Shown one piece after another: positions 5,653-43,773 of a DNA stretch of 64,000 bases. Both the position numbers and the translations under genes were made by a program. Below the pieces are notes generated by a model. The model ran no database searches. It was not told the origin of the DNA and saw only the letters and a program-made list of their open reading frames with translations. Source of the DNA: Paracoccaceae bacterium (GTDB taxonomy: Bacteria; Pseudomonadota; Alphaproteobacteria; Rhodobacterales; Rhodobacteraceae); the NCBI GenBank assembly GCA_026417295.1, contig JAOADN010000002.1, positions 1 through 64,000 on the forward strand, in the 5' to 3' direction. Every line of letters starts with the position of its first letter. Position 1 is the first letter of the stretch.

Positions 5653-7521
<1,869 letters not shown>

Positions 7522-7528
7522 GGCGCGG

Positions 7529-8513: not shown

Positions 8514-8560
8514 GCCGCAGGAAACCGGGGCCGTCCTGCGGGTCCGGCGGGACAGACCGA

Positions 8561-9820: not shown

Positions 9821-9857
9821 CGGCGCGACCGCGCGGCAGGTCGGGGGTGGCGGCCCG

Positions 9858-13001: not shown

Positions 13002-13002
13002 G

Positions 13003-13785: not shown

Positions 13786-13791
13786 CCCCAG

Positions 13792-14475
13792 ATGGCCCTG
13801 CCAAGGCTTTGCCCCGAAATCCTCACGCTGCCGGTCGATGCGCCGGTGGACTATGAATGGAACGACTGGGACGCGCTGGCCTATTTCGACTATGCCGATA
13901 CCGACCTTTTCGCGCGCCTCGAACGACTGACCGGCAAGGCCAACATCGCTCTGGCGCTGGCGGTCTGCGAATGGATCCTGCGGCGCTTTGCGGGGATCGA
14001 GCCGCTCGAGGATGCGTCGGAATATGTCGAGGCGGGCTGGGCCGCGCTGCTGGACCCTGAATACTCCGGATGGATCGAACTTGATTACGAGGACAATCCC
14101 GGGCCTGTCCTTCGCCCGCAGGTCATCGTGATGGGCATTGTCAACGACGCGTTCTACGAGAACGACGACGATCCCGAAATGGCGTGGCGCCCGTGTTACG
14201 CGGTCAACCTTGCGCGTTACGTCCTGCCGGATGGAACAGCATTCGAGGACTGGCTTGAAAGCGGCATTTCTCGCCTCGAGCGTTTCCACACATGGGAGAT
14301 CGAAGGGCACGGGGACGATCTGTTCGCAGAGGAGATCTATCAGGGCAGACCTGTCGCACGGGAGATCTTCGATGCGACCTTCCCCTACCGGCCGGAAGAG
14401 GCCGAAATGCTGCTTCATCGGCTGATCGGACAAATCGATCCAGGGAACGAGTTCCTGAACCTTCCAGGTGCCTGA
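13792..14475 (+). CDS. Unknown acidic protein, candidate immunity protein 2
   Basis: A 227-residue, strongly acidic cytoplasmic protein (DYEWNDWDALAYFDYADTD near residues 20-38 and ENDDDPEMAW near 122-131). No family is recognised. It starts 6 bases after the previous gene and ends 8 bases before the convergent DUF6484 gene. Acidic proteins paired with basic toxins often work by occupying the nucleic-acid-binding surface, and the upstream effector has a very basic linker and toxin domain. Either this or the preceding protein could be the cognate immunity factor, or they may act together. Confidence 0.6.
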   Translation: MALPRLCPEILTLPVDAPVDYEWNDWDALAYFDYADTDLFARLERLTGKANIALALAVCEWILRRFAGIEPLEDASEYVEAGWAALLDPEYSGWIELDYEDNPGPVLRPQVIVMGIVNDAFYENDDDPEMAWRPCYAVNLARYVLPDGTAFEDWLESGISRLERFHTWEIEGHGDDLFAEEIYQGRPVAREIFDATFPYRPEEAEMLLHRLIGQIDPGNEFLNLPGA

Positions 14476-14926: not shown

Positions 14927-17695
14927 CTATTCGAACGCATAGGCGAAGCCGTCCGGCCCGCCGGTCACCGTGACCTTCGTCAGCGCCTCGCCGCCGAGGC
15001 GGCGGTTGAGCACCTGTCGGCTGAGTTCGGGCAGGAGCGTGTTCGTGAGGATGGCGTCGATCATGCGCCCGCCCGACTCGATCTCGGTGCAGCGCGCCTT
15101 GATCGCGTCCATCACCCCCTCGCCCACGACCAGCTCGGCGCCGTGCCCGGCCTCGAGACGGCGCGCGATGCCGCGGAGCTTGTGGCCCGCGATGGCCTCT
15201 ATCATCGCGTCCGAGAGCGGGTAGTAGGGGATGGTGACGACGCGGCCGAGAAGTGCTGCCGGAAACACCTTGAGGAGCGGGGCGCGCAGGGCCTGGGTCA
15301 GTTCCTCCATGTCGGCCGGCGATTTCCCGTCATCGGTCATCGCCATGATCTCTTCCGAGCCGACGTTCGAGGTGAGCAGGATGAGGGTGTTCTTGAAGTC
15401 GATCCGGCGGCCCTCGCTGTCGTCCATCATCCCCTTGTCGAAGACCTGGAAGAAGATCTCGTGGACATCGGGGTGGGCCTTCTCGACCTCGTCGAGGAGC
15501 ACGACCGAATAGGGCCGGCGGCGCACCGCCTCGGTCAGGATCCCGCCCTTGCCGTAGCCCACGTAGCCCGGGGGCGCGCCCTTGAGCGTGGAGACGGTGT
15601 GCGCCTCCTGGAACTCGCTCATGTTGATCGAGATGAGGTTCTGCTCGCCGCCGTAGAGGGTTTCGGCGAGCGCCAGCGCGGTTTCGGTCTTGCCCACGCC
15701 CGAGGGGCCGCAGAGCATGAAGACGCCGATGGGCTTTTCCGGCGCGCCGAGGCCTGCATAGGAGGTCTGGATGCGGTTCGCGATCATGCCCATCGCGTGG
15801 TCCTGGCCGACGACGCGCTCGGCGAGGATGCCGGCGAGCGCGAGCGCGCGTTCGGTCTGGCTGGCGAGCATCCGGCCCATCGGGATGCCCGTCCAGTCCT
15901 GCACGACGCTTGCCACCGCGTTGCGGTCGACCGAGGGCAGGATGAGGGGGCGTTCGCCCTGGGCCGCGGCAAGCTCGGCCATCTTCGCGCGCAGGTCCGA
16001 GAGCGCGGCGGCGCGTTCCTCGGGGGAAAGCGGCGGGGGTTCGGCGCTGCCGGTGTCGGCGGCTGACGCTTCGCCGGCCGGTGCGTCGGCGGGGGCGTCG
16101 GTGTCGGCGGGGGCGGCCTGGGGTTCGATGTCGCCGACCGCGCCGGTCCCGTCCACCGCGGCCCCTGCCCCGCGCAGCTTCGCGCGCAGATCGAGGATCG
16201 CCTCGACAAGCGCCTTCTCGGCCTCCCACCGCGCCTTCGCGGCCTGAAGCTCCTCGGCGGCCCTGGCCTGTGCGGCCTCGACCTCGGCCTTGCGCCCGGC
16301 CACGTCGATGCCGATCGCCTCCTCGCGCTCGATGATCCCGGCCTCGATCTCGAGCGCCTGGGCGCGCCGCTCGATGTCCTCGACCTCGGCGGGGGTCGCG
16401 TGCTGGCTGACGGCCACGCGGGCGCAGGCGGTATCGAGAAGGCTGATCGCCTTGTCGGGCAGCTGGCGGCTGGGGATGTAGCGGTGCGACAGCCGCACGG
16501 CCGCCTCGAGCGCCTCGTCGAGGATCTCGACCTTGTGGTGCTTCTCGAGCACCCCGGCCACGCCGCGCAGCATGCGGACGGCGGCCTCCTCGCCCGGTTC
16601 CTCGACCTTGACGACCTGGAAGCGGCGGGTGAGCGCGGGGTCCTTCTCGATGTGTTCCTTGTATTCGGCCCAGGTCGTGGCCGCGACGGTGCGCAGTTCT
16701 CCCCGGGCGAGCGCGGGCTTGAGAAGGTTCGCGGCATCGCCCGTTCCGGCCGCGCCGCCCGCGCCGATGAGCGTATGGGCCTCGTCGATGAAGAGGATGA
16801 CGGGTTTCTCGGAGGACTGCACCTCGTCGATCACCGACTTCAGGCGCTTTTCGAACTCTCCCTTGACGCTTGCGCCCGCCTGCATCAGCCCGATGTCGAG
16901 CATGTGCAGGTCGACGTTGCGAAGCTGCGGCGGCACGTCGCCCCGCGCGAGGCGGAGCGCGAAGCCCTCGACCACCGCGGTCTTGCCCACGCCCGCCTCG
17001 CCGGTGAGGATGGGGTTGTTCTGGCGCCGCCGCATCAGGATGTCGATGATCTGGCGGATCTCCATGTCGCGGCCGATCACCGGGTCGATCTTGCCGGCCT
17101 TCGCCCGCTCGGTCAGGTTGGTGGCGTACTGCTGGAGGGCGGACTGGCCGCCCGGCTTCTGCTTCGGCCGGTCCTCGGCCGCGGGCGCACGGGCCGGGGC
17201 CTCGACGGACTGTTCGAGGAGCCCGCCAAGCTGGCCCTTCAGGGAATCCGGGTCGATCCTGTCGAATTCGAGGCTCATCCGCAGCAGAAGCCCCTCGAGC
17301 ACGGGGGTCTTCATTGCGGCGAGCAGGATGTAGGCCGAACGCACCTGGTCGTCGCCGAATTCCAGCGAACCGAAGGTCCATGCCTCCTGGATCGCGCGGA
17401 AGATGTGGTCGGAGAATTCCTCGACCGCACTTGCCCCGTGGGGCAGCGCGTCGAGGGTACGGGCGATGTCGCCCTCGAGGCGGCCCTCGTCCACGCCGGC
17501 CGCCTGGAGCAGGATCTCGAAATCCGAGCGCGGCGAATGGGCGAGCTCGAAGATGAAATGGGCGAGTTCGACATAGGGGTTGCCACGCGACTTGGCCGCC
17601 TGGGCGGCTGCCGAGAAGGCCTTGAGACAGACCGGGTCGAGCTTGCCGACAAGCTCCTTGCGCTTGACCGTCTCCTGACTGCCGCGCTGGGCCAT
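14927..17695 (-). CDS. tssH: Type VI secretion ATPase TssH (ClpV)
   Basis: ClpV is the AAA+ unfoldase that disassembles the contracted TssB/TssC sheath so that its subunits are reused. The 922-residue protein has an N-terminal Clp domain (1-150), the first AAA+ module with Walker A GEAGVGKT at 232-239 and FIDEAHTLIGAGG, a coiled-coil middle domain, and a second AAA+ module with GPSGVGKT and VLLDEVEKAHPDV. The middle domain carries an Ala/Pro/Asp-rich insertion of about 55 residues (APADTDAPADAPAGEAS region), which explains the extra length compared with the usual 860-900. It is divergent from ppkA across 158 bp. Confidence 0.97.
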   Translation of the reverse strand: MAQRGSQETVKRKELVGKLDPVCLKAFSAAAQAAKSRGNPYVELAHFIFELAHSPRSDFEILLQAAGVDEGRLEGDIARTLDALPHGASAVEEFSDHIFRAIQEAWTFGSLEFGDDQVRSAYILLAAMKTPVLEGLLLRMSLEFDRIDPDSLKGQLGGLLEQSVEAPARAPAAEDRPKQKPGGQSALQQYATNLTERAKAGKIDPVIGRDMEIRQIIDILMRRRQNNPILTGEAGVGKTAVVEGFALRLARGDVPPQLRNVDLHMLDIGLMQAGASVKGEFEKRLKSVIDEVQSSEKPVILFIDEAHTLIGAGGAAGTGDAANLLKPALARGELRTVAATTWAEYKEHIEKDPALTRRFQVVKVEEPGEEAAVRMLRGVAGVLEKHHKVEILDEALEAAVRLSHRYIPSRQLPDKAISLLDTACARVAVSQHATPAEVEDIERRAQALEIEAGIIEREEAIGIDVAGRKAEVEAAQARAAEELQAAKARWEAEKALVEAILDLRAKLRGAGAAVDGTGAVGDIEPQAAPADTDAPADAPAGEASAADTGSAEPPPLSPEERAAALSDLRAKMAELAAAQGERPLILPSVDRNAVASVVQDWTGIPMGRMLASQTERALALAGILAERVVGQDHAMGMIANRIQTSYAGLGAPEKPIGVFMLCGPSGVGKTETALALAETLYGGEQNLISINMSEFQEAHTVSTLKGAPPGYVGYGKGGILTEAVRRRPYSVVLLDEVEKAHPDVHEIFFQVFDKGMMDDSEGRRIDFKNTLILLTSNVGSEEIMAMTDDGKSPADMEELTQALRAPLLKVFPAALLGRVVTIPYYPLSDAMIEAIAGHKLRGIARRLEAGHGAELVVGEGVMDAIKARCTEIESGGRMIDAILTNTLLPELSRQVLNRRLGGEALTKVTVTGGPDGFAYAFE

Positions 17696-27505: not shown

Positions 27506-28932
27506 GCCTGCGCATCGTCATCGAGAATTCGCCCCACCCGCAGCCGGTGCGGGAGATGCGCCACGCCGGCGGCGACCTGACGATCGGGCGCGCGCCGGAC
27601 TGCGACTGGCAGATCGACGACCCCGACATGTACATCTCGCGCCGTCATGCCGTCATCTCGGGGCGCGACGGGCAGTGGACCGTCACGGATGCCAGCCGCG
27701 GCGGCCTTTTCGTGGACGGCGCGACGACGCCCCTGGGCGCGGGCAACTCGGCCCGGCTAGAGCACGGGACGCGGCTGCGCATGGGCGATGTCGTCCTGCG
27801 GGTGGAGTTCGAGGAGGAGGCCCCTGCACGCGCCGGCGCACCGCCCGCGCAGGCCCGTGCGGCGCAGGACGACTTCTTCACGCGGCCGGTCGCAGCCGAG
27901 CCGCGGGTCGAGCGCCCGAAGTCGCTGCCCGAGCCCTTCGACGCGCCGCGCCCGTCGATGGCGCCCGAACCGGCCCGCCGGGCCGCGGCACCGCCGCCGC
28001 AGTTCGACGATCCCTTCACGCTTGACCCGGTGCGCCCCGGCGCGTCGCCGGCCCTGCCCCCGGGTCCGCCCGGCCCCGCGCCGGCGCCGGCCGTGGAGGA
28101 TTTCAGGTTCGACGACTTCTTCGGTCCGCGACCGCAGCCCGAGCGTCCGGCGCCGCGCGTCGCGGTCGAGGCGGATTTTTCCTTCGGCCCCGCGCCGGTC
28201 GCGCCGGCCCCGGCCGGGCCCGCCGTCAGCCCCGAAGCCCCCCCGGCCGTGCCGCCCGGTCCGGCCGGCCCCGCCGCACCGGCGGCCGCGGCTGCGCAGC
28301 CCCTGCCCGCACCGCAGCCCCCGCCGCAACCGCAGCAGCCGCCGCAGCCCGACCTGCGGGATGCCGCCGCGGCCTTCCTGCGCGGGGCGGGTCTTCCCGC
28401 GGCGGCGCTTTCCGAGGAGGAGCTGGAGGCGCTCGGGCGGCGTTTCCGCCTGCTTGTCGAGGGGCTGGTCGTCCTGCTGAGGACGCGCGCGAAGGAGAAG
28501 GGCAGCGCGCGCGTGGCCCAGACGGTGATCGGCAGCGCTGATGTCAACCCGCTGAAGTTCCTGGCGACGACGGAAGAGGCGGTTGCCGCGCTGGTCGCGC
28601 CGCGCGGCCCCGGCTATCTGGCGCCGGATGCGGCGATCGACGCGGCCTTCCGCGACCTGTCGGACCATCACGTCCGCACCTGGGCCGCGCTTCAGGCGGC
28701 GCTGCGGCGGATGATCGACCGATTCGATCCCGAGGGATTCGAGAAGGAGGCCGAGGAGGCCGGGGCCCTGCGGTCGCTGATTCCCGGCAGCCGCGGCGCG
28801 CGGCTGTGGCAGTACTACGTCGAGCGCTACCGCGAGATCGCCAAGGCGGCGGAGGACCGTTTCCTGGGCGATGTCGGCGCGGATTTCAGGGATGCCTATG
28901 AAGGCAGACGACGGGAGGAGAGGACGAAATGA
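27502..28932 (+). CDS. tagH: FHA domain protein TagH
   Basis: TagH (Fha) recognises phosphothreonine and is the usual substrate and partner of PpkA in post-translational activation of the T6SS. The 476-residue protein has an N-terminal FHA domain (about 1-100) with LTIGRAPDCDW and ISRRHAVIS, a long Pro/Ala linker (about 110-290), and the C-terminal TagH domain (about 295-476) with FLRGAGLP and EGLVVLLRTRAKEKGSARV. Candidate phospho-sites are not obvious. It overlaps both neighbours by 4 bp (ATGA), so it is tightly coupled to tssG and tssJ. Confidence 0.93.
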   Translation: MSLRIVIENSPHPQPVREMRHAGGDLTIGRAPDCDWQIDDPDMYISRRHAVISGRDGQWTVTDASRGGLFVDGATTPLGAGNSARLEHGTRLRMGDVVLRVEFEEEAPARAGAPPAQARAAQDDFFTRPVAAEPRVERPKSLPEPFDAPRPSMAPEPARRAAAPPPQFDDPFTLDPVRPGASPALPPGPPGPAPAPAVEDFRFDDFFGPRPQPERPAPRVAVEADFSFGPAPVAPAPAGPAVSPEAPPAVPPGPAGPAAPAAAAAQPLPAPQPPPQPQQPPQPDLRDAAAAFLRGAGLPAAALSEEELEALGRRFRLLVEGLVVLLRTRAKEKGSARVAQTVIGSADVNPLKFLATTEEAVAALVAPRGPGYLAPDAAIDAAFRDLSDHHVRTWAALQAALRRMIDRFDPEGFEKEAEEAGALRSLIPGSRGARLWQYYVERYREIAKAAEDRFLGDVGADFRDAYEGRRREERTK

Positions 28933-29384
28933 CATTCAGTCGCAGGGTCTTTCTGGCCGGCGCCGGTGCCACGGCGGCGCTGGCAGCGTGCGGGCCCACG
29001 GGGCCGGGTTCGGTGACGATCGTGGCGCAGGCCACGGCCGGCGCGAACCGGGGGGCCGACGGCGCGGACCGTCCGGTGACGCTGCAGGTCATCCAGATGC
29101 GCGGCACGGGGGCCTTCGATGCCGCCGACGCGCTGGCCCTGCAGAACCCGGCCGCCGCGCTGGGGGGCGACTTCATCCGGGTGGACCTGATCTCGCTGCC
29201 GCCGGGCGGCAAGGCGACCAAGACGATCGGCCTTGATCCCGGCGTGGCGGCGATAGGCGTGGTGGCCGGATTCATCAACCCGGCGGGCAAGGCCTTCCGC
29301 GCGAAGAGCGCGGTGTCGCCGACCGACAACGTGACTTTTTCGGCGGCGGTCGGGCCCGGCGGGCTGGTGCTGAGCCCCGCCTGA
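28929..29384 (+). CDS. tssJ: Type VI secretion lipoprotein TssJ
   Basis: TssJ is the outer-membrane lipoprotein of the TssJLM membrane complex. The 151-residue protein has a signal peptide starting MTFSRRVFLAGAGA, with a twin-arginine-like RR, and a lipobox LAAC (Cys near residue 21). The mature part is a transthyretin-like beta sandwich, with the conserved N-terminal VTLQVIQMRGTGAFDAAD as in known TssJ proteins. It is followed by a 70-bp gap with a strong hairpin before tssK. Confidence 0.92.
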   Translation: MTFSRRVFLAGAGATAALAACGPTGPGSVTIVAQATAGANRGADGADRPVTLQVIQMRGTGAFDAADALALQNPAAALGGDFIRVDLISLPPGGKATKTIGLDPGVAAIGVVAGFINPAGKAFRAKSAVSPTDNVTFSAAVGPGGLVLSPA

Positions 29385-30790: not shown

Positions 30791-32251
30791 ATGGGTCAGG
30801 ACGACGATCCCTTCGGCCTGTCGAACGACGCGGGTCGGACGCGGATCCGCCCCATCCGCAGCGGTCAGGCGCAGGGCGCGGGGACGGCGGCGGTGCCGCC
30901 GGCGACATCGCAGGGGGGAACGGGCTATGGCGGACAGGGCGCGACGCTGAGCGGCGGCGCCCAGTCGACGGCGGCGCGCGGCACGGGCGGCTACGTGCCC
31001 GAATACGTGCCGCAGGGCGCGCCGCGGCTGCGACGGTCGCGTCTGCATCCCAATCCGCTGGTCTCGGCCTTTGCGGGCCTTCTGGAGATCGCGCCGGAAC
31101 TGGAGCGGGCCGCGCCGCCGGCGCAGCCGCAGGCCCTGCGCCAGCGGATGTTCGACAGCCTGATCGACGCGCGGGACGCTGCCGTCGGCATGGGAATTCC
31201 GCTGAGCCGTGCGGAGGCCGCGGCCTGGTTCGTCGGGGCGCTGATCGACGACATCGCGCTGAACACGCCCTGGGGCGGTCATTCGGACTGGCCGCGCCAG
31301 CCCCTGGTGACGCAGCTCAAGGGCGACGTGGATGCCGGCACGAAGTTCTTCGACCGGCTCGACGAGTTGCTGCGATATCCGAACCGAGACCCGCAACTGC
31401 TTGAAATCGCCTATATCTGCCTGGGGCTCGGTTTCCGCGGGAAATTCCGCGTGCGGCCCGGAGGCGGCGAGGCCGAGCTTCTGAACCTGCGGATGCAGGC
31501 GGCCCGTGCCCTTCGTGACCGCGAGGCCGAGACCGCCCCCCTGTCGCCCAACTGGCAGGGCGTCACCGCGCCGGACGGGCCGCGCCGCTTCGTCGTGCCG
31601 ATCTGGACCGTCTTCGTGGGCGCGGTCGCGCTGGTGACGGGCATCTATGTCGCGCTGTCGATGCAGCTTTCGAACAAGGCCGAACAGCTTTACGCCCTGG
31701 CCGGCCTCGTCCCCCCGCCCGAGCGGGCCGCCATCTACCGCCCCGTGCGCGAGACCGTCGCACCACCGCCGGAGATCAAGATCGAGCCCGTGGTGATCGA
31801 GCTTCTGCCGACGATCGAGGCGCTGCTGCCGCCGGACACGGCCGGCGCCTTCCGCGGCAGCGAGGACACGTCCTTTGCCGACATCATCCTTCAGGGCACC
31901 AACCCCGAAGTGTTCCGTTCGGCCAAGGCCGACCTGAACGATGTCTATCTGCCCCTCGTCCAGGCCATCGGCGCGGGCATCGCCGGCAATGTGGAGGTGA
32001 TCGGCGGCGTCACCGTGATCGGGCATACCGACAACGTGCCGGTGCAGCGCTCCAACCCCTTCGGCACCAACCAGGGCCTGTCGGAGGCGCGCGCCGCGAC
32101 GATCGCGGCCTTGCTGGTGGCGGCGGGGGTGCCGGCGGAGCTGGTGAAGTCGGAAGGCCGGGCCGACAGCGAGCCCATCGCGGACAATTCGACCAAGGAC
32201 GGGCGCGCGCAGAACCGCCGCGTCGAGATCAAGATCCAGAAGAAGCTCTGA
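30791..32251 (+). CDS. tssL: Type VI secretion protein TssL with C-terminal OmpA domain
   Basis: TssL (DotU/IcmH) is an inner-membrane component that contacts TssM and the baseplate. This is the long form of 486 residues: a disordered Gly/Thr N-terminus (1-80), the cytoplasmic DotU domain (about 85-245, with NPLVSAFAGLLE, LIDDIALNTPWGGHSDW and LEIAYICLGLGFRGKFR), one transmembrane helix (269-290), and a periplasmic OmpA-like peptidoglycan-binding domain (about 340-486) with VIGHTDNVPVQ and NRRVEIKI. The OmpA part anchors the complex to the cell wall. Confidence 0.96.
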   Translation: MGQDDDPFGLSNDAGRTRIRPIRSGQAQGAGTAAVPPATSQGGTGYGGQGATLSGGAQSTAARGTGGYVPEYVPQGAPRLRRSRLHPNPLVSAFAGLLEIAPELERAAPPAQPQALRQRMFDSLIDARDAAVGMGIPLSRAEAAAWFVGALIDDIALNTPWGGHSDWPRQPLVTQLKGDVDAGTKFFDRLDELLRYPNRDPQLLEIAYICLGLGFRGKFRVRPGGGEAELLNLRMQAARALRDREAETAPLSPNWQGVTAPDGPRRFVVPIWTVFVGAVALVTGIYVALSMQLSNKAEQLYALAGLVPPPERAAIYRPVRETVAPPPEIKIEPVVIELLPTIEALLPPDTAGAFRGSEDTSFADIILQGTNPEVFRSAKADLNDVYLPLVQAIGAGIAGNVEVIGGVTVIGHTDNVPVQRSNPFGTNQGLSEARAATIAALLVAAGVPAELVKSEGRADSEPIADNSTKDGRAQNRRVEIKIQKKL

Positions 32252-35200: not shown

Positions 35201-35808
35201 GCAGCAACATCGATGTCAACACGGCGGACTTCCAGCGCCTGTTCGGACCGGGCGGGATGTTCGACAAGTTCTTCACCGAGACCCTGTCGCCGCATCTTGC
35301 CAGCAAGACCCCGCCGCTGGCCTGGCGCGCCGATTTCGGCCTGTCGGACGAGGCGCTGAAGCCCTTCGAGCAGGCGATGAAGATGCGTGACGCGCTGTTC
35401 CCCGGGGGGGCCGGCCCGATCATGGCCTTCAACCTGCTGCCGACGGCCCTGTCGGCGGGGGCGGCGCGGGTGACGCTGAACCTGGACGGGCAGGTGCTGA
35501 CCTACATGAACGCGCAGGTGCCGCCCCTGGCCATGTCCTGGCCCGGCAAGGACGGGACGAACCTGATCACGCTGTCCTTCACCCCGGCCGACGGCTCGCC
35601 CGACGTGATGACGTCGGAGAGCGGGTCCTGGGCCTGGCTCAGGCTTCTGCGGAAGGGCCGCCTGTCGCCCACGGACCTGCCCGAGAAGTTCAAGCTGGGG
35701 CTGGCCGCGGGCGGCCATTCGGCAAGTTTCGACCTGATCGCGAATTCGGTGGACAACCCCTTCGACCTGACGATGTTCGGCAACTTCCGCTGCCCCGAGG
35801 GGTTCTAG
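32254..35808 (+). CDS. tssM: Type VI secretion membrane subunit TssM (IcmF)
   Basis: TssM spans the inner membrane and periplasm and contacts TssJ. The 1184-residue protein has two N-terminal membrane helices (about 15-35 and 50-70), a cytoplasmic NTPase domain with Walker A GPPGTGKT (134-141) and VLVDTAGRY (177-185), a third membrane helix near residue 450, and a long periplasmic region. The C-terminal motifs GRFPF, GPGGMFDKFF and NPFDLTMFGNFRCP recur in the second IcmF-like protein of this window. The Walker motif is intact, unlike in some TssM proteins. Its stop overlaps the tagF GTG start. Confidence 0.96.
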   Translation: MRVLKAILRFLFSRGLWIFIGLAILSALIWLFGPLVSVGEVEPLASELVRGIVIGVIAVLWLFSLLLAQLRAARKNQLFVTELARPEEKAPAKPGEANIAEVSGRFQSVMAEMKRSKLGSKKFLRDMPWYLLIGPPGTGKTTALKQSGLHFPIDLSDDIKGVGGTRNCDWFFTEQAVLVDTAGRYVQQQSNPEVDAAEWAGFLEMLKKHRGRRALNGVIVALSMKELLGPEQELRAHGREIRKRLAELGERLQIHLPVYLMITKADLVPGFEPFFADLTTRDREQVWGATLATDARIDSVTVERETRALLGAVEQRLSARMAEDVPLPRRAEIFRFPAQMERAEGPLKILIDTIFGESRYEESPWLRGFYFTSATQEGSPIDRMLGEMAGSFGLQADPPPRRAHGETRSYFLRNLMTDVIFPEAGLGQFDRAAEERRKWVWRGSFAAAALAATMAGLMFLFSFLRYSGAIDDQERLTADLSGRLANVAARQAPTDPLDLDVALDAMTAVDAARTEVPQNLLTIAGPRADAELARAQTIAYERTLRNVLEPRMVALLEATMWRHIRDPEFMLGALKAYYMMTGLPDHPSGLAPYDTEFLAGWWQGTLPDQAVIPPFPTEAALVHQVAAIERLGTEQVKVPGDPELIAAALETVCTIPLSVRAYSALLSHPEVAALPEWTPAEAAGPNGLRVFTRVSGKTLRQGLPGAFTYAGFHDTVLPLIPEVAEQAALDRALFAGGCAESAQVSVDQLQADILKLYTDDFISQWDVLLRDIRLAPVKDLTTAAANLKDLSGPSSALKRLLEGVVKETDLTAVPADDGAEVPPGAVGKAASKLGKLGKLIKTGTKIAASSGGAAAGPPPGEDIARHFAGLKAIIAEVDGVPPLLTDTETAITALVDVLNTVASTPNPEASLAEQGGIATFTGRLVDVGATLPDPVDDWITGLTADIVAQAKGAVLDQLNSRWKSDILPFCRSATAGRFPFEPGSNIDVNTADFQRLFGPGGMFDKFFTETLSPHLASKTPPLAWRADFGLSDEALKPFEQAMKMRDALFPGGAGPIMAFNLLPTALSAGAARVTLNLDGQVLTYMNAQVPPLAMSWPGKDGTNLITLSFTPADGSPDVMTSESGSWAWLRLLRKGRLSPTDLPEKFKLGLAAGGHSASFDLIANSVDNPFDLTMFGNFRCPEGF

Positions 35809-36314
35809 TGGACGAGGACGCAAGGCCCGTCGCGGGCTTCTTCGGCAAGATCCCCGCGACGGGAGACTTCGTGTGGCGCGGCCTGCCCGACAGGTTCCGC
35901 CAGAGCTGGGATGCCTGGATCACCCGGCATGTCGCCCCGGCCCTTCGCGCGGGCGACGGCCCGGCGGCAGGGGGGCTGCGGTTCCGCCTTGTGTCGGGGG
36001 GGCGCGCGGCGGCGGGCGTGATCCTGCCATCCGAGGACAGCGCGGGGCGCCGTTTTCCCCTGAGCCTGGTGCTGACGGCAGACGACCTGCCGTCCCCGGA
36101 GGCCCTGGATCCCTGGTGCGATGCGGCAGCCGCAGCGCCGCGCGACAGCGCCGACGGCCTGTGGGAGGCGCTCGACGCCCTGCCCGCCCCCGAGGGCCCG
36201 CCACCCGCCGGCGCCCCCGCCCTGTGGCTCTGGCGCCGCGGCGGGGCACCCGTCGAGGCCGATCCGGCCGATCCGTCCGCGGCCCTTGCGGCGCTGTCGG
36301 CAGAGGTCAGTTGA
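35808..36314 (+). CDS. tagF: TagF domain protein, post-translational T6SS regulator
   Basis: TagF represses T6SS assembly independently of, or opposite to, the PpkA kinase. The 168-residue product has the family start GFFGKIPATGDFVWRGLPDRFRQSWDAW-type region (residues about 8-35) and RFPLSLVLTADDLP. It starts with GTG at 35808, overlapping the tssM stop. The last 8 bp overlap the end of the convergent vgrG gene, so the two transcripts are antisense to each other at their 3' ends. In this organism TagF is stand-alone rather than fused to PppA. Confidence 0.92.
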   Translation: MDEDARPVAGFFGKIPATGDFVWRGLPDRFRQSWDAWITRHVAPALRAGDGPAAGGLRFRLVSGGRAAAGVILPSEDSAGRRFPLSLVLTADDLPSPEALDPWCDAAAAAPRDSADGLWEALDALPAPEGPPPAGAPALWLWRRGGAPVEADPADPSAALAALSAEVS

Positions 36315-38613
36315 GGTTGATCTTCGATCCCTTGCCGTTGATCTTGCCGTCGGCCTTGAGGTTGATGTCGCCCGATCCCTTGACGCTGATGTCCTTGCCC
36401 TGGATCGAGATCGTCCCGTCCTTCTTGAGGGTGATCTGCGCCGAGCCGCACTTGAGGGTGATCTCGTCGGCCACGTCGAGGACATACTTCTTGCCGACCT
36501 TGATGCCCATCTGACCGTCGGCCTTTAGCATGTCGTCCTTGGTGATGGCGCTGGCCCGGCCGCCGCTGATGGTGAGGGACTGGTCCTTGCTGATCGTCAC
36601 CCCCTGGCTGCCGGCGATGCCGACGGTCTGGTCGCCCCCGACCGTGACCGACTGCGATCCGCCGACCGTCCATTCGTCGTCGGCACCGACCGAATGGGAC
36701 TGCCCGGCCCCGACCGAGACGCTGCGCGAGGCGCCGATCGTGTTGGTCTGGACGGCACCGACGGAGCGCGTCTCCTCGCCGCCGACGGAGACCGTCCGGG
36801 CCGCGCCGACCGTGAGTGTCTGCGAAATGGCCACGGTATGGGCGTGGTTCTTGCTGATGGTCTTGGTCGAATTGCCGCCGATGGTGATCGTCTCGTCCAG
36901 CGAGACGGACAGCTTGCGGTTCTGGCCCACCGTCTCGTCATCGTTGGCGACGATCTTGACGAAGCGGTTGTTGCCGACGGTGACCGACTTGTCGTTGCCC
37001 ACGGTCTCGATGCGGTCGTGGCCGATGTCCTGCCGGGCGTCGTGGCCGACATCCTCGGCGAAATCGTTGCCGATGGTCCGCGTCTCGTTGTTCTTCACAA
37101 GCTCGTTGTGGTCCTTCTCGGCCTGGAAGTAGACCTCCTCGGCCCCCTTCTTGTCCTCGAAGCGCAGTTCGTTGAATCCGCCGCCGCCGGGCGTGGAGTT
37201 GGACTTCCAGCCCGACTGGGTCGCGCTGCCGGGAAGCCCGTAGGGTGGCATGTTCTCGGCATTGTAGACGCGGCCCGTGATGATCGGCATGTCGGGATCG
37301 CCCTCGAGGAAGTCGACCACGACCTCGTGACCGATGCGCGGGATCTGGATGAAGCCCCAGCCCGCCCCGGCCCAGGTCTGGCTGACGCGCACGAAGCAGG
37401 TCGTGTTCTCGTCCTTCCTGCCCTTGCGGTCCCAGTGGAACTGCACCTTCACGCGCGCGTGCTTGTCGGTGTAGATCTCTGCCCCGGCCGGGCCGACGAC
37501 CCGCGCCGTCTGCGGCCCGCGCATGACCGGCTTCGGCGTCCGCCGTTCGGGACGGAAGGGGACGGCCTTCGGCGCCAGGGTCAGTTCGGCCCTGAAGCCG
37601 CCGGCGGATTCGGCTTCGCTGCGCTGCTCGAGATGGCGCGCAAGGCTGTAGTCGCAGCGCAGCACGAGATAGTCGCCGTTCTCGGCCTCGCGCGGGTGCC
37701 CGTCGAAGGTGAAGGTATGGCCCGACCAGATCGGGCGGGTGCGCCCGATGGCATGGACCCGGGCAAAGGGATGCTGCAGCTCCTCAAGCCGCACCGCGGC
37801 CAGCGCGTCGCCGCGGTCGTGCTCGATATAGGCGCCGGGATAGTGGTAGACCTCCATCGCGTCGGAACTGTGGCCGAGCGGGTTCTCGGCCAGGGCCATG
37901 AGGTCGGTCGACGGCTTCTTGAAGTGATAGTCGGTGTGGGTGAACTTGCCCGAGCGCACGGCCGCGCCGGGCGTCCAGGCCGAGATGAAGTCGATGTCCT
38001 CGGCCGAGCCGCCGCGATCGGCCGCGAACTCGATCGTCGATGTGCCGGGCGGGGGCTTCAGATCGCTGGACATGTCGAACAGGACGAGCCTGTGCCCGTC
38101 CTCGGCATGTTCGAAGAAGTAGCCGATCCCCTCGTGCTCGAAGAGCCGCTGGACGAAATCGAGGTCGCTTTCGCCATACTGGACGCAGTATTCGCGCTGC
38201 GGATACTTCTTCTTGAGCCGGCCATGATCGAACTTGCCGGCGGAAGGGTCCTTGTAGACTTCCTCGACGATCTCGATGACCGTCTTGTTCTGGAATATCC
38301 GGTTGTCGGACCTCAGCGACAGGAACCACAGCCAGGGACGGGCGACGACGCGGTAGTCGGTGACCTTGTCACGCACCGAGACCACCGAGAACTCGCTGAC
38401 GAAGCCGTGGAAGTGGCGTGGCCTGTCGCCGGGCACGGTGACGGTGACGGGCTTGCCCAGGACATCCGTCGCCTTGATGTCGGGCGCGTCCGAGGTGAAG
38501 GAGATCTCGTACCGGAAGGGACGGCTGATCTCGTCAAAGCCGGAGAGCGCCGCGAACTCGATCTCGCCCTTGCCGCCCTTGACATCGACGGTGAAATGCT
38601 TGGCCTCGGCCAT
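36307..38613 (-). CDS. vgrG: Type VI secretion spike protein VgrG (TssI)
   Basis: VgrG forms the trimeric spike that carries effectors through the target membrane. The 768-residue protein has gp27/gp44-like domains (1-380: FTVDVKGGKGEIEFAALSGF, DLDFVQRLFEHEGIGYFFEH), the gp5 OB fold (about 385-470: VKVQFHWDRKG, GWGFIQIPRIGHEVVVDFLEGDPD) and a long repeat needle (about 508-690). It ends in a plain DUF2345-like tail (KINGKGSKINLN), so there is no fused toxin. ATG 38611-38613 is chosen because GGAGGACTTGAGG precedes it; a longer start would add 22 residues of non-family sequence. No PAAR gene is adjacent. Confidence 0.96.
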   Translation of the reverse strand: MAEAKHFTVDVKGGKGEIEFAALSGFDEISRPFRYEISFTSDAPDIKATDVLGKPVTVTVPGDRPRHFHGFVSEFSVVSVRDKVTDYRVVARPWLWFLSLRSDNRIFQNKTVIEIVEEVYKDPSAGKFDHGRLKKKYPQREYCVQYGESDLDFVQRLFEHEGIGYFFEHAEDGHRLVLFDMSSDLKPPPGTSTIEFAADRGGSAEDIDFISAWTPGAAVRSGKFTHTDYHFKKPSTDLMALAENPLGHSSDAMEVYHYPGAYIEHDRGDALAAVRLEELQHPFARVHAIGRTRPIWSGHTFTFDGHPREAENGDYLVLRCDYSLARHLEQRSEAESAGGFRAELTLAPKAVPFRPERRTPKPVMRGPQTARVVGPAGAEIYTDKHARVKVQFHWDRKGRKDENTTCFVRVSQTWAGAGWGFIQIPRIGHEVVVDFLEGDPDMPIITGRVYNAENMPPYGLPGSATQSGWKSNSTPGGGGFNELRFEDKKGAEEVYFQAEKDHNELVKNNETRTIGNDFAEDVGHDARQDIGHDRIETVGNDKSVTVGNNRFVKIVANDDETVGQNRKLSVSLDETITIGGNSTKTISKNHAHTVAISQTLTVGAARTVSVGGEETRSVGAVQTNTIGASRSVSVGAGQSHSVGADDEWTVGGSQSVTVGGDQTVGIAGSQGVTISKDQSLTISGGRASAITKDDMLKADGQMGIKVGKKYVLDVADEITLKCGSAQITLKKDGTISIQGKDISVKGSGDINLKADGKINGKGSKINLN
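36540..37092 (-). repeat. Repeats encoding the VgrG needle
   Basis: This part of vgrG encodes about 20 imperfect repeats of roughly eight residues with the pattern VG-x-x-x-x-x-x (for example ETVGNDKSVTVGNNR, RSVSVGAGQSHSVG). Such repeats form the triangular beta-prism that pierces membranes. At about 180 residues the needle is long for the family. Confidence 0.8.
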
Positions 38614-38718
38614 CCTCAAGTCCTCCGGGGGTGCGAAGAAGCGCGCGGGCGGAAATCCTGCCCCGTCCGGCCACGCCACTATAGCCTGCTTTCGCGTCAG
38701 TCCGATGGGGGAATTCCG

Positions 38719-41217
38719 TCACAGGACCTGCGGACATGCCAGACCCTTCATGAGGCGGAACGCCGCGAGCGGATTGGCGGGGCTGGCGAAGGTGATCTCG
38801 AGGAACAGGCGCGATCCGCCGGCCTTGACGTCCACGAGGAAGCGCTGCCCCTCGTCGCGCTGCCGCACCTTGAAGGGTGCGAGCAGGCGGAACAGGCCCC
38901 AGGGACCGGGCTGGGCCACCCGTGCCGAGCCTTCGGGGGCCGTGAAGCTGACCTCGGCCCCGGCCGCCGGATCGGCGCCCGGCCAGGTCAGGCGCAGGTC
39001 GTCGGCATCCGTCGTCACCGGCCCGCCCTGTCCGCCGATCGAGATGAAGGCCTGACCGCGTTCGGCGAGCGCGGCAAGCGTCATGTCGCTGCCGCCGCCG
39101 CCGACGGGGGCGAGACTGTCGCGGATGGCGCGGGCACGCTCGAAGAAGGCGGCGCTTTCGGGCGAGAGCCCCTCGAAGCGTGCCTCGGGCTTCCATCGCC
39201 AGGGCGACACGGTGGTGTCGAGGTAGGTCTCGGCGCGCCCGGCGAGGAAGCGGTCGATCGCGCCGCCGGGCCCGAGCAGGCCGAGCACGGCGCCGACATC
39301 GGCATCCTCGCCGTCAGGGACGAAGGGGAAGCGGCCCTCGACGCCATTGCGGCAGGCGGCGAGAGCCTCGGTCTGCCAGGCCCGCGTGAGCGGATTGGTC
39401 AGCAGGTCGGCATGGCTTGCCGCGGTCTGGGCGAGCGCGTCCTCGACGATCTGCACCACGACGACGGGCGCCTGGCGCAGGGCGGTGATCGAGGCCGCGC
39501 GGTCCTGGACGCTCATCAGCCGCTGGAGGCCCGCCTCCTCGTCGCGATCCATCGCGCCGAGCGCGACGTTCAGGCTGGCGAAGAGCGCCGAGATCTGCGC
39601 CATCCGGCCCTGTTCGACATACTGGATCATCGGCCCGAAGGTCGCCGCAACACGCAGCTGCTGCTCGTGCGCGCGGCGCCGGTCGGTTCCGCCGGCCTGG
39701 ACCCAGACCTCCCTGAGCAGGGCCACGAGAGGCGAGTCGGTGAGGGCAAGCCGGCCCGAGACGAGAACCGCCGTGTCGGGGTTCAGGAAGGGCCGCACGC
39801 GCAGGTCCGACAGGAAGCCGCTCCACTGGGCGAGGGTCTCGGCCTGGAGGCGGTCCATCACGCGGTCGGGCGCGTCGTTCTGCGGCAGCGGCGTCGCCCG
39901 GGGCCAGAGGCGGGACGCTTCCCTGCGGGCGGTCTGCACGGCAAGACCGGCACCGAAGTCGCGCGCATAGTCCCAGCCCGCCTGGGTGAACAGGCCCGCG
40001 ATCGGGGCGTCGAGCGGCAGTCCGGAGCGGCGCACGAGGACGTCGGCGATGGCGGGCACGGCACGGTCGGGCACCCAGGGCGGAAGGGCGGCGACGGCAT
40101 CGGAACGGCGGAGCTCGAGGAAGGCGCGGGCTTCCTCGGGCGCCTCGGCCGCGAAGGCCGTGGCCTGGGCGAGAAGCTCGGCATCGGGCACCGGCGGCGG
40201 AACGGCCGGAGGGTCGAGGAGGAGGGCGTGGGGCGCCAGCGCGCCGAGCGCGGGATCGGCTGCCGCCTGCGCCGCCAGCCACCCCGCGAGGTAGCCCGGC
40301 GACCAGTCCGCCTGCCCCGACAGGACCGACCAGGCGCGCACGGCATCATAGAGCGTCACGGGATCGCCCTCGCTGGCGATCACGTTGCCGATGGCATCGG
40401 AGATGACGGCAGGAAGCGCCGCGTTCACCGCCGCCCGGTAGACACCGCGGGCATGGGCCGCCGCATCGAAGCCGAGGAGCCCCGCCCCCAGACGGACCGG
40501 CGCCTTCGCGGCCTGCGCGGCCACGCCGGCCGCATCGGCGGCGAGCCGGTCGAGCGTCGGGGCAAGGCCGGCGGCCCCGGCAGGCGCACCGGCCGGCAGG
40601 GCTGCCGCATCGGCATCGAAGACGCGCGAGAGCCGTGCGTGATACTGCCATTCCACCCGCACGGCCCAGCCCGCGACGAGCAGGACGAAGGCGAAGACGA
40701 GCACCAGGGTGATCCCCGTCCAGTTCATCCCGGTCGAGGTGTCGAACGACCTGCGTCCGGCTTCCATCCGGGCCTGGCAGCGCTCGAGGAAGCCGCGCAC
40801 GGGATCGAAATCGTGGCCCGCCTCGGCCGCCCGGCGGATGAAGTCGCGCAAGCTGGCCCCGGAGATGTCGCGCCCGTCGAAGAGATGGCGTGTCGCGCCG
40901 GCCGACCAGGAGAGGGGGTCGAGGTTGCGGTTCGCGCGCGCCTTCTGGTCGATGACGAGCGCGAGCGCGTAACGGGCGGGCGGGATCGTCGAGGCGATGG
41001 CGCCGGCCCGCCGCAGGCTTTCGGAAAATGCATCCAGCGCCCTGACCGCTTCTGCCAGGACGGCCGCCGTGTCCCTCGGGCGCAGGGACGCGAGATCCTC
41101 GGCGAAGGCGAGGACGGGTTCGGCCGCGCGGTCGTAGTATTCCGAGGGGACACCGCGTGTGGACGGTCCGGGCCGCGGCGGCAGCACCGTCCTCGGTCCC
41201 GCGCCATCCTCGATCAT
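38719..41217 (-). CDS. DotU-like/IcmF C-terminal fusion protein without NTPase domain
   Basis: An 832-residue protein in three parts. Residues 25-150 resemble a degenerate DotU (TssL) domain: AEPVLAFAEDLASL, then ARYALALVIDQKARANRNLDPLSW, where genuine DotU has a Tyr/Ala-Leu stretch, acidic IDE and TPWG. Residues 167-187 are one membrane helix. Residues 190-832 match the periplasmic part of TssM: both proteins share GRFPF, GPGGxxD(R/K)F and a closing NP(L/F)xxFxxxxxxxCP. The Walker A and B motifs of TssM are absent. It is encoded between tagX and vgrG, so it should be a T6SS membrane-complex component or regulator. The DotU assignment is by eye and less certain than the IcmF part. Confidence 0.8.
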   Translation of the reverse strand: MIEDGAGPRTVLPPRPGPSTRGVPSEYYDRAAEPVLAFAEDLASLRPRDTAAVLAEAVRALDAFSESLRRAGAIASTIPPARYALALVIDQKARANRNLDPLSWSAGATRHLFDGRDISGASLRDFIRRAAEAGHDFDPVRGFLERCQARMEAGRRSFDTSTGMNWTGITLVLVFAFVLLVAGWAVRVEWQYHARLSRVFDADAAALPAGAPAGAAGLAPTLDRLAADAAGVAAQAAKAPVRLGAGLLGFDAAAHARGVYRAAVNAALPAVISDAIGNVIASEGDPVTLYDAVRAWSVLSGQADWSPGYLAGWLAAQAAADPALGALAPHALLLDPPAVPPPVPDAELLAQATAFAAEAPEEARAFLELRRSDAVAALPPWVPDRAVPAIADVLVRRSGLPLDAPIAGLFTQAGWDYARDFGAGLAVQTARREASRLWPRATPLPQNDAPDRVMDRLQAETLAQWSGFLSDLRVRPFLNPDTAVLVSGRLALTDSPLVALLREVWVQAGGTDRRRAHEQQLRVAATFGPMIQYVEQGRMAQISALFASLNVALGAMDRDEEAGLQRLMSVQDRAASITALRQAPVVVVQIVEDALAQTAASHADLLTNPLTRAWQTEALAACRNGVEGRFPFVPDGEDADVGAVLGLLGPGGAIDRFLAGRAETYLDTTVSPWRWKPEARFEGLSPESAAFFERARAIRDSLAPVGGGGSDMTLAALAERGQAFISIGGQGGPVTTDADDLRLTWPGADPAAGAEVSFTAPEGSARVAQPGPWGLFRLLAPFKVRQRDEGQRFLVDVKAGGSRLFLEITFASPANPLAAFRLMKGLACPQVL

Positions 41218-41220: not shown

Positions 41221-42114
41221 CTAGAGCTTCCCCTCCGCCACCCAGGCCCTCAGGGTTTCCTCGCCGACCTCGAAATGCATCGAGTCCTCGCGGTTGTAGG
41301 CCGCGCCCCAGTACCAGCCTTCCTTGTTGAAGTAGTCGGCCAGCACCACCAGTCCCGCCTGGGTTCCGCCGTCGGCGAAGGGGTCGAGCTCGCCGGCGAG
41401 CGTCAGGTCGATGGCCGTGCCCCAGGAATGGTTCGAGACCGCGGTCGTCGAGCCGCGGATGAAGCGCGCGCAGAAGGCCCCGGCGGTGCCGATCGCCTTG
41501 TAGATGTCCGGCTCTTCGGCCTTGAGCCGCGCCAGCACCCTCTCGAGGCTGTCGAGCGCGGGCTTCAGCATGGTCACGGTGATGGGGCCTACCGTCCGCG
41601 TCTCCATCTGCCCCTTCAGCCGTTCGTTCGTGACCTGCTGGCAGGCGGTGGAATAGCTGTCGCGAGGCTCGCCGAGGATTTCCTTCATCGTGCTGTTGCG
41701 CGGTTGCGTGATGCCCTTGTTGAAGCGGGTCTTGGCCAGCTTCATGGCCTCGGTCATGCCTTCCTCGGGCTGGGTCTCGAAATCCTCGTCGGGCAGGCTG
41801 GGATCGGCCCCGGCAGGGTCCTGGAAGACGACCGGCGCGCTGCTTTCCTGGACGGCGGGCGCCGGCGCGCGATTGGCAAGCAGGCTCATGTCCTCGCGCA
41901 GGCGTGCCAGATCGGCGCGCAGGCCGGCGACCTCGGCCTCGAGGGCCTTGCGCGCCTCGGCCTCGGCGGCCAGCGCAGCCTCGCCGCGCTGCAGGCGCAT
42001 GTCGGTGGCGCTGTCGGCCGTCTCGAGTAGCGTCGTCACGACGGCGAAGGCCATCGCCGCGACGATGACGCCGATCGCCACGATGATCGGGCCGATGACG
42101 TTGGCCTGACGCAT
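41221..42114 (-). CDS. TagX-like M15 family (VanY-type) peptidoglycan peptidase
   Basis: A 297-residue membrane-anchored peptidase. One N-terminal helix (about 7-28) is followed by a coiled-coil region (AEAEARKALEAEVAGLRADLARLRED), a linker, and a C-terminal D,D- or L,D-peptidase domain with the zinc motif SNHSWGTAIDLTLAG (His and Asp ligands) and EDSMHFEVG (catalytic Glu/Asp and third His). TagX of Acinetobacter, a VanY-like L,D-endopeptidase, is needed to open the cell wall for T6SS assembly; the position in this cluster suggests the same job. It starts 2 bp after the pppA stop. Confidence 0.85.
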   Translation of the reverse strand: MRQANVIGPIIVAIGVIVAAMAFAVVTTLLETADSATDMRLQRGEAALAAEAEARKALEAEVAGLRADLARLREDMSLLANRAPAPAVQESSAPVVFQDPAGADPSLPDEDFETQPEEGMTEAMKLAKTRFNKGITQPRNSTMKEILGEPRDSYSTACQQVTNERLKGQMETRTVGPITVTMLKPALDSLERVLARLKAEEPDIYKAIGTAGAFCARFIRGSTTAVSNHSWGTAIDLTLAGELDPFADGGTQAGLVVLADYFNKEGWYWGAAYNREDSMHFEVGEETLRAWVAEGKL

Positions 42115-42116: not shown

Positions 42117-42872
42117 TCAGGACTCCCGGATGTCCACGACGATGGCCGAGACGTTGTCGGGCGCGCCGCTCTCGAGTGCCTCGGTCAGAAGGAGCCGGCA
42201 GGCCTCGTCCGGGTCCGCCGCCTGCCGCAGGAGCTGTTCGATCGTGCTGTCGTAGACGCAGCGCGGCAGACCGTCCGAACACAGAAGCAGGCGGTCGCCC
42301 GGATAGAGCGGGACCGAGAGGCTGTCGATCTCGATCTCGGGCCCGCCGCCGACGGCGCGGGTCACGACATGCGACTCGGGGTGGTTCCCGGCCTCTTCGG
42401 GCGTGATCTGGCCGGCATCGACCAGGGCCTGCACGAAGGTGTGGTCGCGGGTGAGCTGGCGCAGGCGCCCCGCCCTGAGCAGGTAGGCGCGGCTGTCGCC
42501 GACCCAGGCCACATGCGCGATGGCGCGCACGATCATCACGGCGACGACGGTCGCACCCATGGTTCCCTTGCCATGCGCCGCGGCATGGGCGAGGACGGCC
42601 GCATTGGCCGCCTCGATCGCGGCGGCAAGGGCCGGCCCCGGGGCCGCGTCGTCGGGCACCGAACCGAGATGGTCGATGACGATATCGGCCGCCACGTCGC
42701 CGTTTCCGTGGCCGCCCATGCCATCGGCAACCGCCCAGAGGAACCCGGACGGATCGGTGAGGATGGCGTCCTCGTTGCGCGAACGGATGCGCCCCTTGTG
42801 GGTCAGGCCGGCCCCGCTGGCGACAGGGACCCCGCGGGACATTGCGGGAACGACGGTCGTGATCCCGCTCAT
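42117..42872 (-). CDS. pppA: PP2C family protein phosphatase PppA
   Basis: PppA removes phosphates placed by PpkA and turns the T6SS off. The 251-residue protein has the PP2C metal-binding motifs NEDA, VADGMGGHGNGDVAAD and GAPDNVSAIVV, together with WVGDSRAYLLR and LLCSDGLPRCV. Length is normal and no TagF domain is fused. The start at 42870-42872 follows the domain; an internal ATG (MSRGVPVASG) is possible. It is the first gene of the minus-strand set pppA-tagX-fusion gene-vgrG and shares an AT-richer divergent promoter region with the OmpA-family gene. Confidence 0.93.
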   Translation of the reverse strand: MSGITTVVPAMSRGVPVASGAGLTHKGRIRSRNEDAILTDPSGFLWAVADGMGGHGNGDVAADIVIDHLGSVPDDAAPGPALAAAIEAANAAVLAHAAAHGKGTMGATVVAVMIVRAIAHVAWVGDSRAYLLRAGRLRQLTRDHTFVQALVDAGQITPEEAGNHPESHVVTRAVGGGPEIEIDSLSVPLYPGDRLLLCSDGLPRCVYDSTIEQLLRQAADPDEACRLLLTEALESGAPDNVSAIVVDIRES

Positions 42873-42947
42873 CTTGCGCCCGCCCGGAGCGGGCCGCAGC
42901 GGCTGGGCAATCCGTGTCCGATCATCGTGCCGTTCCAAAAGCGTGAA

Positions 42948-42976
42948 TTGAATGCACGGGGATGATAGCCTACAAT
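42948..42976 (+). promoter_or_regulatory. Sigma-70-type promoter of the OmpA-family gene
   Basis: TTGAAT (42948-42953), then 17 bases, then TACAAT (42971-42976): a near-consensus promoter, five of six matches in the -10 box and four of six in the -35 box, with ideal spacing. It lies 33 bases before the start codon in an AT-rich stretch. This is the clearest promoter in the window. Confidence 0.7.
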
Positions 42977-43008
42977 TCCCGCAGTTTAATCCATTTTCTG
43001 GTGCCGCC

Positions 43009-43773
43009 ATGCGTATCGCTCCTGCCGTTGCCGGCCTGCTTTGCATTTGCGCGACCCCTGCGGCCTTCGCCCAGGAACGGACGGACGAGGAGCTTCTGGC
43101 GATCTTCGCAAGGCAGGTCGAACTCTTCCGGGCGCAGGCAGCAGGCGAAGAGGTGGCGACGCGCGGGCTGAAGCTGGTGGCCGGGGACACGATCCTTGAA
43201 CTCGACGGCAGCCCCTTCGCCGGACAGACCGGCCCGTCGCTGATGGCCGGCGTGGGATCCGAGGAGGTGGGCACCGGGCTTGCGGCGACGGACGGAAGCG
43301 TCACCGTGACGGCTGCGCCGGGCGGTCTTGCGGCGCCGGCGGGCGATGGCGTGGACATGGCAGCGGCAACCGCGACGGCCGCGCCGCCGGTGCAGGCGGC
43401 GCCGCCGCAGCCGGTGACGGTTGCGCAGTTCTCCGACGAGCTCACGATCGACGTGAACATCCGCTTCGGTTACGATTCCGCCGCGCTGACGCCCGACCAG
43501 ATGCCGCGCCTCGCCCAGATGTGCCGGGTCATGCTGAAGAGCAGCGTCAACATGTTCGAGATCAGCGGACATACCGATGCTGCCGGCCCGGAGGACTACA
43601 ACAGCCGCCTGTCGCTGCAGCGGGCGCAGGAAGTCGCGCGCTACATGGTCAACGACTGCGGCATCGACCCGGCACGGATCCGCACCGTCGGCAAGGGCGA
43701 GGCGGTCCTGAAGAACCCGGCCGATCCCCGTGGGGCCGAGAACCGCCGCGTGGAGTTCCAGGCGCTGAGCTGA
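43009..43773 (+). CDS. OmpA family envelope protein
   Basis: A 254-residue periplasmic or outer-membrane-associated protein. It has a Sec signal peptide (MRIAPAVAGLLCICATPAAFAQ), a low-complexity Ala/Pro/Thr middle (about 80-145), and a C-terminal OmpA-like peptidoglycan-binding domain (about 145-254) with ISGHTDAAG, NSRLSLQRAQEVARYMV and NRRVEFQ. It lacks a beta-barrel domain. It sits at the right edge of the T6SS cluster, divergent from pppA, and may help anchor the apparatus, in parallel with the OmpA domain of TssL. A near-consensus promoter lies just upstream. Confidence 0.9.
   Translation: MRIAPAVAGLLCICATPAAFAQERTDEELLAIFARQVELFRAQAAGEEVATRGLKLVAGDTILELDGSPFAGQTGPSLMAGVGSEEVGTGLAATDGSVTVTAAPGGLAAPAGDGVDMAAATATAAPPVQAAPPQPVTVAQFSDELTIDVNIRFGYDSAALTPDQMPRLAQMCRVMLKSSVNMFEISGHTDAAGPEDYNSRLSLQRAQEVARYMVNDCGIDPARIRTVGKGEAVLKNPADPRGAENRRVEFQALS

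Follow-up and report, generated by a model that had tools for sequence, protein, structure and literature searches.

The locus and its gene content

The window, the 64,000-nucleotide stretch of Paracoccaceae DNA analysed here, comes from a genome whose assembly is incomplete (76.7%). It carries a T6SS cluster in which genes for the usual membrane-complex proteins face a group of genes on the opposite strand that includes an intact open reading frame joining a DotU-like part to the periplasmic half of IcmF (Table 1). The same cluster also encodes an FHA protein, sheath and Hcp proteins, and an AAA protein consistent with ClpV/TssH. Because complete TssJ, TssL and TssM genes adjoin it, the chimera is an addition to the normal TssL/TssM pair, not a replacement for it. 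A first-pass annotation of the locus had read the protein as the functions of TssL and TssM joined in a single polypeptide; the joined architecture stood.

Table 1. Coordinates of the chimera, its parts and the neighbouring genes, in window positions.
Feature	Coordinates	Strand	Evidence
TssJ lipoprotein	28929..29384	plus	TIGR03352 67 bits (cut-off 31.6)
Canonical long-form TssL (DotU + TM + OmpA)	30791..32251	plus	PF09850 E 3e-50; PF00691
Canonical TssM/IcmF with P-loop, 1184 aa	32254..35808	plus	TIGR03348 1143 bits; Walker A LLIGPPGTGKTT in translation
TagF (N-terminal domain)	35808..36314	plus	PF09867
VgrG (TssI), directly downstream of chimera	36307..38679	minus	TIGR03361 629 bits; order same in Rhodobacterales loci
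DotU-IcmF chimera ('mini-TssM'), 832 aa	38719..41217	minus	Intact ORF; Pfam, NCBIfam, AlphaFold2, Foldseek
Periplasmic IcmF/TssM half of chimera, residues 220-832	38722..40560	minus	PF06761 220-507; IcmF_C beta domain 740-811; closing NP...CP
Single transmembrane helix of chimera, residues 168-186	40660..40716	minus	Hydropathy 2.59
Truncated DotU/TssL-like cytoplasmic domain of chimera, residues 27-160, six predicted helices	40738..41139	minus	PF09850 in 37/42 orthologues; PDB fold and sequence-profile matches
M15 peptidase (TagX catalytic domain), N-terminal TM then coiled region	41221..42114	minus	PF13539 E 2.2e-12
PP2C phosphatase, PppA-like (approximate start)	42117..42902	minus	NF033484 Stp1/PP2C E 2.8e-64
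OmpA-domain protein, divergent, cassette edge	42952..43773	plus	PF00691 E 5.8e-18; position kept in most loci

Three parts make up the chimera: a truncated DotU/TssL cytoplasmic fold (residues 26-160), one membrane helix (168-186) and, over residues ~220-832, the periplasmic half of TssM/IcmF. The HMM and structure checks that had been proposed for a DotU fold at residues 25-150 and an IcmF core at 190-832 thus found both, with somewhat shifted boundaries. The full-length AlphaFold2 model, computed with an orthologue alignment, has a mean pLDDT of 88.5 and contains a long helix at residues 166-205. Counts for the family refer to an alignment of 42 full-length sequences, in which one membrane helix is predicted for 37 members and two for five. 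Taken at the level of sequence profiles and predicted models, the chimeric architecture of this reading frame is confirmed.

The same protein family appears at NCBI as 'ImcF-related family protein' (e.g. WP_096787836.1, WP_260001383.1 and WP_183601856.1), a name that covers the IcmF part only and comes with no mention of the DotU part or the operon. No description of the DotU-IcmF architecture or of its cassette was found in the open-access literature under two tssM genes, TssM-like proteins, TssL-TssM fusions or ImcF-related proteins, an absence that is not proof, subscription papers lying outside that scope.

The periplasmic half of IcmF without its NTPase

In the window chimera, Pfam models identify an IcmF-related domain (residues 220-507, E 1e-35) and IcmF_C (740-811, E 3e-12), each of which is present in all 42 family members. 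The TssM equivalog model TIGR03348 is likewise matched by 42/42 at E<=0.01; on the window protein its match is confined to the periplasmic part and, at 212.8 bits, misses the cut-off of 388. Profile-profile comparison aligns chimera residues 229-831 to TssM 506-1183 (E 1e-42), and a Foldseek search with the full-length model retrieves the structures of EAEC TssM (6ixh, E 1.9e-13; 4y7l/4y7o, TMt 0.79; and 4y7m). The similarity to TssM is only ~25-30%, and the region matching TssM 815-930 is ~60 residues shorter in the chimera. From the membrane helix to the start of the homologous periplasmic region there are 42-43 residues in chimera and TssM alike; therefore, the periplasmic part begins equally far from the membrane in both.

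Several motifs of the tail had been described as shared with the TssM of the same cluster. GRFPF and LGPGG/FGPGG were borne out; the closing NP...CP is shared too, but with a spacing of 11 versus 10 and with the phenylalanine elsewhere. The TssJ interaction of TssM has been assigned to its last 150 residues (PMC4256274), and the region corresponding to this C-terminus is present in the chimera.

What is missing is the cytoplasmic half. The IcmF NTPase domain (IcmF-related_N, PF14331) was found in none of the 42 chimeras by Pfam profile search, and Walker A is absent from all 42, as opposed to its presence in 46/46 neighbouring TssMs. Agreeing with the original reading, the IcmF part is a periplasmic half that lacks the P-loop across the family.

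A truncated DotU domain at the N-terminus

The first-pass annotation had also placed a degenerate DotU domain ahead of one membrane helix, and several lines of evidence bear this out. On the window chimera, PF09850 covers residues 30-93 with 22.7 bits (E 8.6e-5), below the cut-off of 27, which the Rhizobium chimera passes with 27.7 bits; at E<=0.01 the model is matched by 37 of the 42 orthologues, with a best value of 5.9e-8. Comparing the N-terminal alignment of the chimeras with that of the co-encoded TssLs by hhalign gave P 1.6e-4, against 0.27 for reversed TssL and 0.45, 0.81, 0.76, 0.25 and 0.014 for five column-shuffled controls; the corresponding values for M15 and TssM were 0.88 and 0.8.

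The fold agrees. An AlphaFold2 model of residues 27-162 (pLDDT 93, pTM 0.87) has six helices, and when it was compared by Foldseek with 350,542 PDB chains, ranks 1-5 were all TssL/DotU cytoplasmic domains (6y4r, 7thw twice, 4v3i and 3u66; TMq 0.59-0.71, probability 0.92-1.00). The E-values of these matches are 0.24 or worse and not significant alone, so that rank and probability carry the argument for the DotU fold. The full-length model also matches the same TssL structures with probability 0.99-1.00, ranked below the TssM structures, and a sequence-profile search of 177,635 PDB sequences has DotU proteins as its top two hits, at weak E-values of 0.07 and 0.29. A chance match to DotU was considered and is ruled out by the 37/42 members, the shuffled and reversed controls, the model and the fold search.

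The domain is incomplete at its C-terminal end. The distance from a conserved Trp to the membrane helix is ~62 residues in the chimera versus ~105 in TssL (~43 fewer), and the GFxG motif, present in 32/32 TssLs, occurs in 0/42 chimeras. Judged by alignment, the missing part is helix 7 together with the H6-H7 loop. In EAEC TssL, the partners of the H6-H7 and L3-L4 loops are TssE and TssK, respectively, and a groove binds the cytoplasmic loop of TssM (PMC6730261). Since the H6-H7 region is absent, TssE docking is predicted to be lost in the chimera.

Distribution, selection and gene order

The closest named relatives of the window chimera are in Rhodobacterales. Among 84,980 species genomes, the chimera was found in 42 loci, the names being those of Rhodobacterales or unspecified alphaproteobacteria; a sample of 393 genomes from the order yielded 17 with full-length relatives, and the gene is also carried on Rhizobium and Sinorhizobium plasmids. 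In 398 genomes drawn from the phylum, no chimera was found besides the window's own and that of one genome of another alphaproteobacterial family, where it has M15 and OmpA neighbours and is accompanied by a TssJKL cluster.

Nine pairs of chimeras give dN/dS values of 0.06-0.23, indicating purifying selection. A quick tree built on the periplasmic region groups the chimeras in one clade (SH-aLRT 99) and the accompanying TssMs in another (100), with TssMs from chimera-free clusters falling elsewhere; long branches meet between the first two clades, and their exact relationship is to be read with that caveat. The single clade rules out a recent duplicate of the local tssM. A pseudogene, a frameshift or an artefact of gene fission is ruled out by the intact chimeras of ~40 genomes and the low dN/dS. 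Two copies are interrupted, one in Rubellimicrobium mesophilum, where tssM is interrupted too, and one in a Tabrizicola MAG (L074); these interruptions may be sequencing errors or decay.

The conserved order is OmpA / PP2C (PppA-like) / M15 peptidase / chimera / VgrG / TagF-TssM-TssL. Wherever the contig is long enough, PP2C, M15 and chimera directly follow one another, which extends to the family the initial observation that the chimera is encoded with a TagX-like peptidase and PppA. In most loci, the divergent OmpA gene lies before and VgrG after, facing TagF-TssM-TssL-TssK. In the Rhizobium cluster, OmpA, phosphatase, M15 and chimera adjoin TssH, and TssJ is present.

Three loci add to this picture. 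Both tssM genes of Paracoccus lutimaris lie elsewhere in the genome, away from the OmpA-PP2C-M15-chimera-VgrG cassette, which can thus move or separate as a unit. In Sulfitobacter sp. DFL-14, only the C-terminal 193 aa of TssM adjoin the cassette (15428-16006 of locus L050), and the IcmF NTPase is encoded in a 1010-aa open frame at another site of the genome; a rearrangement possibly split tssM. On a plasmid of Rhodobacter sp. CZR27, genes for DUF4150, DUF2169, 3-oxoacyl-ACP synthase, caspase-like and M14 peptidase proteins adjoin the cassette (~2437-14336 of locus L087), a block of possible effector or adaptor genes.

The N-terminus of TssL (window 30791-30860, plus strand, and related loci) bears a near-invariant DPFGLxxDAGRTRIRP (27/31), which may be a PpkA/FHA phosphothreonine site comparable to Thr14 of Agrobacterium TssL. 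An N-terminal RTVLP that resembles its RTRIRP is found in five chimeras only (window 41160-41217, minus strand; loci L082, L046, L047 and L074 among them), and such a motif is therefore ruled out as a feature of the chimera family.

The M15 peptidase and co-occurrence with the T6SS

The M15 peptidase has the metal and base residues of the PF13539 domain: His224, Asp231, Asp272 and His275 (aligned-sequence numbering) are invariant in 27 relatives. One TM helix is predicted before the catalytic domain, versus two in TagX, an L,D-endopeptidase that has a PF13539 domain, is required for the T6SS and binds TssM (PMC5061870; PMC10564176). The chimera starts 3-5 nt past the M15 stop in most loci, which suggests that the two are translationally coupled.

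Co-occurrence was assessed in 198 genomes of the order, 49 of which have an IcmF (TssM-type) match; nine of these carry the chimera. TssJ is present in 9/9 carriers versus 4/40 of the other TssM-bearing genomes (Fisher p 3.5e-7), and the M15 peptidase in 9/9 versus 20/40 (p 0.0067), neither value being corrected for kinship. Given the 20 chimera-free genomes with M15, the peptidase occurs without the chimera, never the reverse, in this sample. An obligatory pair of M15 and chimera is thereby ruled out in one direction, and the co-occurrence with peptidase and PppA, the constancy of which had been put forward for checking, is one-sided: it holds for the peptidase in carriers, but most of those 20 genomes also have the phosphatase nearby. 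The tighter partner, unforeseen at the outset, is TssJ. As the T6SS of the chimera is one lineage in the tree, the TssJ association may be a marker of that lineage; many roseobacter T6SS clusters are without TssJ (PMC9515649), which agrees with the present sample.

The expectation that the chimera would not be found without a T6SS was upheld: TssM is in the same locus or genome for every carrier checked, and 5/5 genomes searched with the IcmF NTPase model, four of them chosen because their locus showed no tssM or only part of one, encode an NTPase-bearing TssM.

In most of the chimera-free Rhodobacterales T6SS clusters (L103-L120, L041 and L042), an M15/OmpA/PP2C block recurs next to TagF-TssM, so that TagX-like peptidases are common in the order also where the chimera is absent. 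This block includes a gene of ~720-750 aa, a Ser/Thr kinase where tested. No hidden chimera was found beside M15 in L041 and L042, where the neighbours tested were histidine kinases, a Ser/Thr kinase, a glycosyltransferase and a sugar enzyme.

Discussion

In the usual view, one subunit, TssM, crosses the envelope, consumes ATP, docks the baseplate and holds TssJ. A second TssM-like protein, conserved and having the envelope part without the ATP and docking part, would separate these functions in nature. With it, the purpose of the TssM NTPase, the reason for two kinds of pillar in the ring and the passage of the machine through its own cell wall could be tested directly. Under a vague name, the gene is found in dozens of genomes of Rhodobacterales and on plasmids of Rhizobium; its carriers are some marine and soil bacteria, where its product seems to be one more component of the envelope channel.

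We propose that the chimera is probably an accessory subunit of the T6SS membrane complex, one that lacks the NTPase and acts with the co-translated M15 peptidase. The reasons for reading it as an added subunit are the TssM periplasmic half, the equal spacing from the membrane and the strict association with TssJ-bearing T6SS in the sample. The identification of each half by independent methods, the single clade under purifying selection, the intact active site of M15 and the presence of TssM wherever checked also speak for it. The protein would sit in the inner membrane and have its DotU part facing the cytoplasm and its IcmF part facing the periplasm, a topology on which the charges flanking the helix are indecisive. 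Through the IcmF beta domain, which binds TssJ in TssM, the chimera would associate with TssJ and TssM in the structure that spans the envelope. Lacking the NTPase domain and the DotU H6-H7 region, it would neither dock the baseplate nor bind ATP as TssL and TssM do, and the DotU remnant would contact TssL or TssM instead. By analogy with TagX in Acinetobacter, the M15 peptidase is probably the working partner, which would open the peptidoglycan where the chimera-containing complex inserts. Counting against an accessory subunit are the Rhodobacterales clusters that have peptidase and PP2C but no chimera, which make the chimera dispensable for the peptidase and for the T6SS generally, and the Paracoccus lutimaris cassette apart from any tssM.

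That the chimera replaces some TssM copies in the ring, as first suggested, is plausible; that it regulates the channel, the other early suggestion, is less so. A bolder extension, which we put forward tentatively, is that the membrane ring of this lineage is a designed hetero-oligomer, its pillars part chimera and part TssM, so that ATPase and docking domains would form a partial set, the DotU remnant would take a TssL position, and the peptidase would travel along.

Other readings have to be weighed against the accessory subunit. The chimera could be a brake: by taking up TssJ or TssM sites while unable to dock the baseplate, it would restrict how many complexes form or when they do so, and it would be switched by the phosphatase encoded with it, which belongs to the threonine phosphorylation pathway. 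Loss of the NTPase and of H6-H7 fits an incomplete competitor, the operon is shared with PP2C, and in Agrobacterium, phosphorylation of TssL controls the conformation of TssM (PMC3953482). However, PP2C also occurs in T6SS clusters without the chimera, and the RTRIRP motif is kept in TssL and has no general equivalent in the chimera, so we regard a regulatory role as unlikely. Somewhat less likely again is an anchor that would localise the M15 peptidase (and the OmpA protein) for wall cutting at T6SS sites, outside the channel. The close junction of the two genes would suit this, but the peptidase has a membrane helix of its own and is found in 20 TssM-bearing genomes without the chimera, and an anchor would not require the whole periplasmic half of IcmF, including the beta domain that binds TssJ. 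The missing NTPase half and low similarity to TssM might also be taken as signs of a functionless relic, left over from a second T6SS or a decaying duplicate of tssM. Such a relic is very improbable: the gene is intact and syntenic in ~40 genomes, its dN/dS contradicts decay, and the chimeras form an old clade of their own instead of being recent copies of the neighbouring tssM.

Having set out these alternatives, we compare the proposed accessory subunit with known systems. Like TssM/IcmF (TIGR03348; PF14331+PF06761+PF06744), with which its periplasmic half is colinear over ~600 residues, the chimera has the beta domain fold of EAEC TssM (4y7l/4y7o) and the closing NP...CP; unlike it, the chimera is without the N-terminal helices, the cytoplasmic NTPase and the P-loop, and has one TM helix where TssM has three. 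With TssL/DotU (PF09850), it shares the first six helices of the cytoplasmic fold and a single TM directly after them, whereas the seventh helix and the GFxG region are lacking and the TM is followed by the IcmF half, in place of OmpA or nothing in TssL.

Two further systems serve as precedents. Citrobacter rodentium has two TssM forms of differing length in one T6SS, both needed and in a fixed ratio (PMC4256274). There, the short TssM1 arises by transcriptional slippage, keeps the N-terminus and lacks the TssJ-binding C-terminus; the chimera, in contrast, has a gene of its own and retains the C-terminus but not the NTPase. In the TagX-TsmK-TslA complex of Acinetobacter (PMC10564176, PMC5061870), TsmK is a pseudo-ketoacyl synthase, TssJ is absent and no DotU-IcmF chimera has been described. 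The likeness lies in a PF13539 peptidase that acts with TssM and in accessory membrane proteins that extend the TssLM complex.
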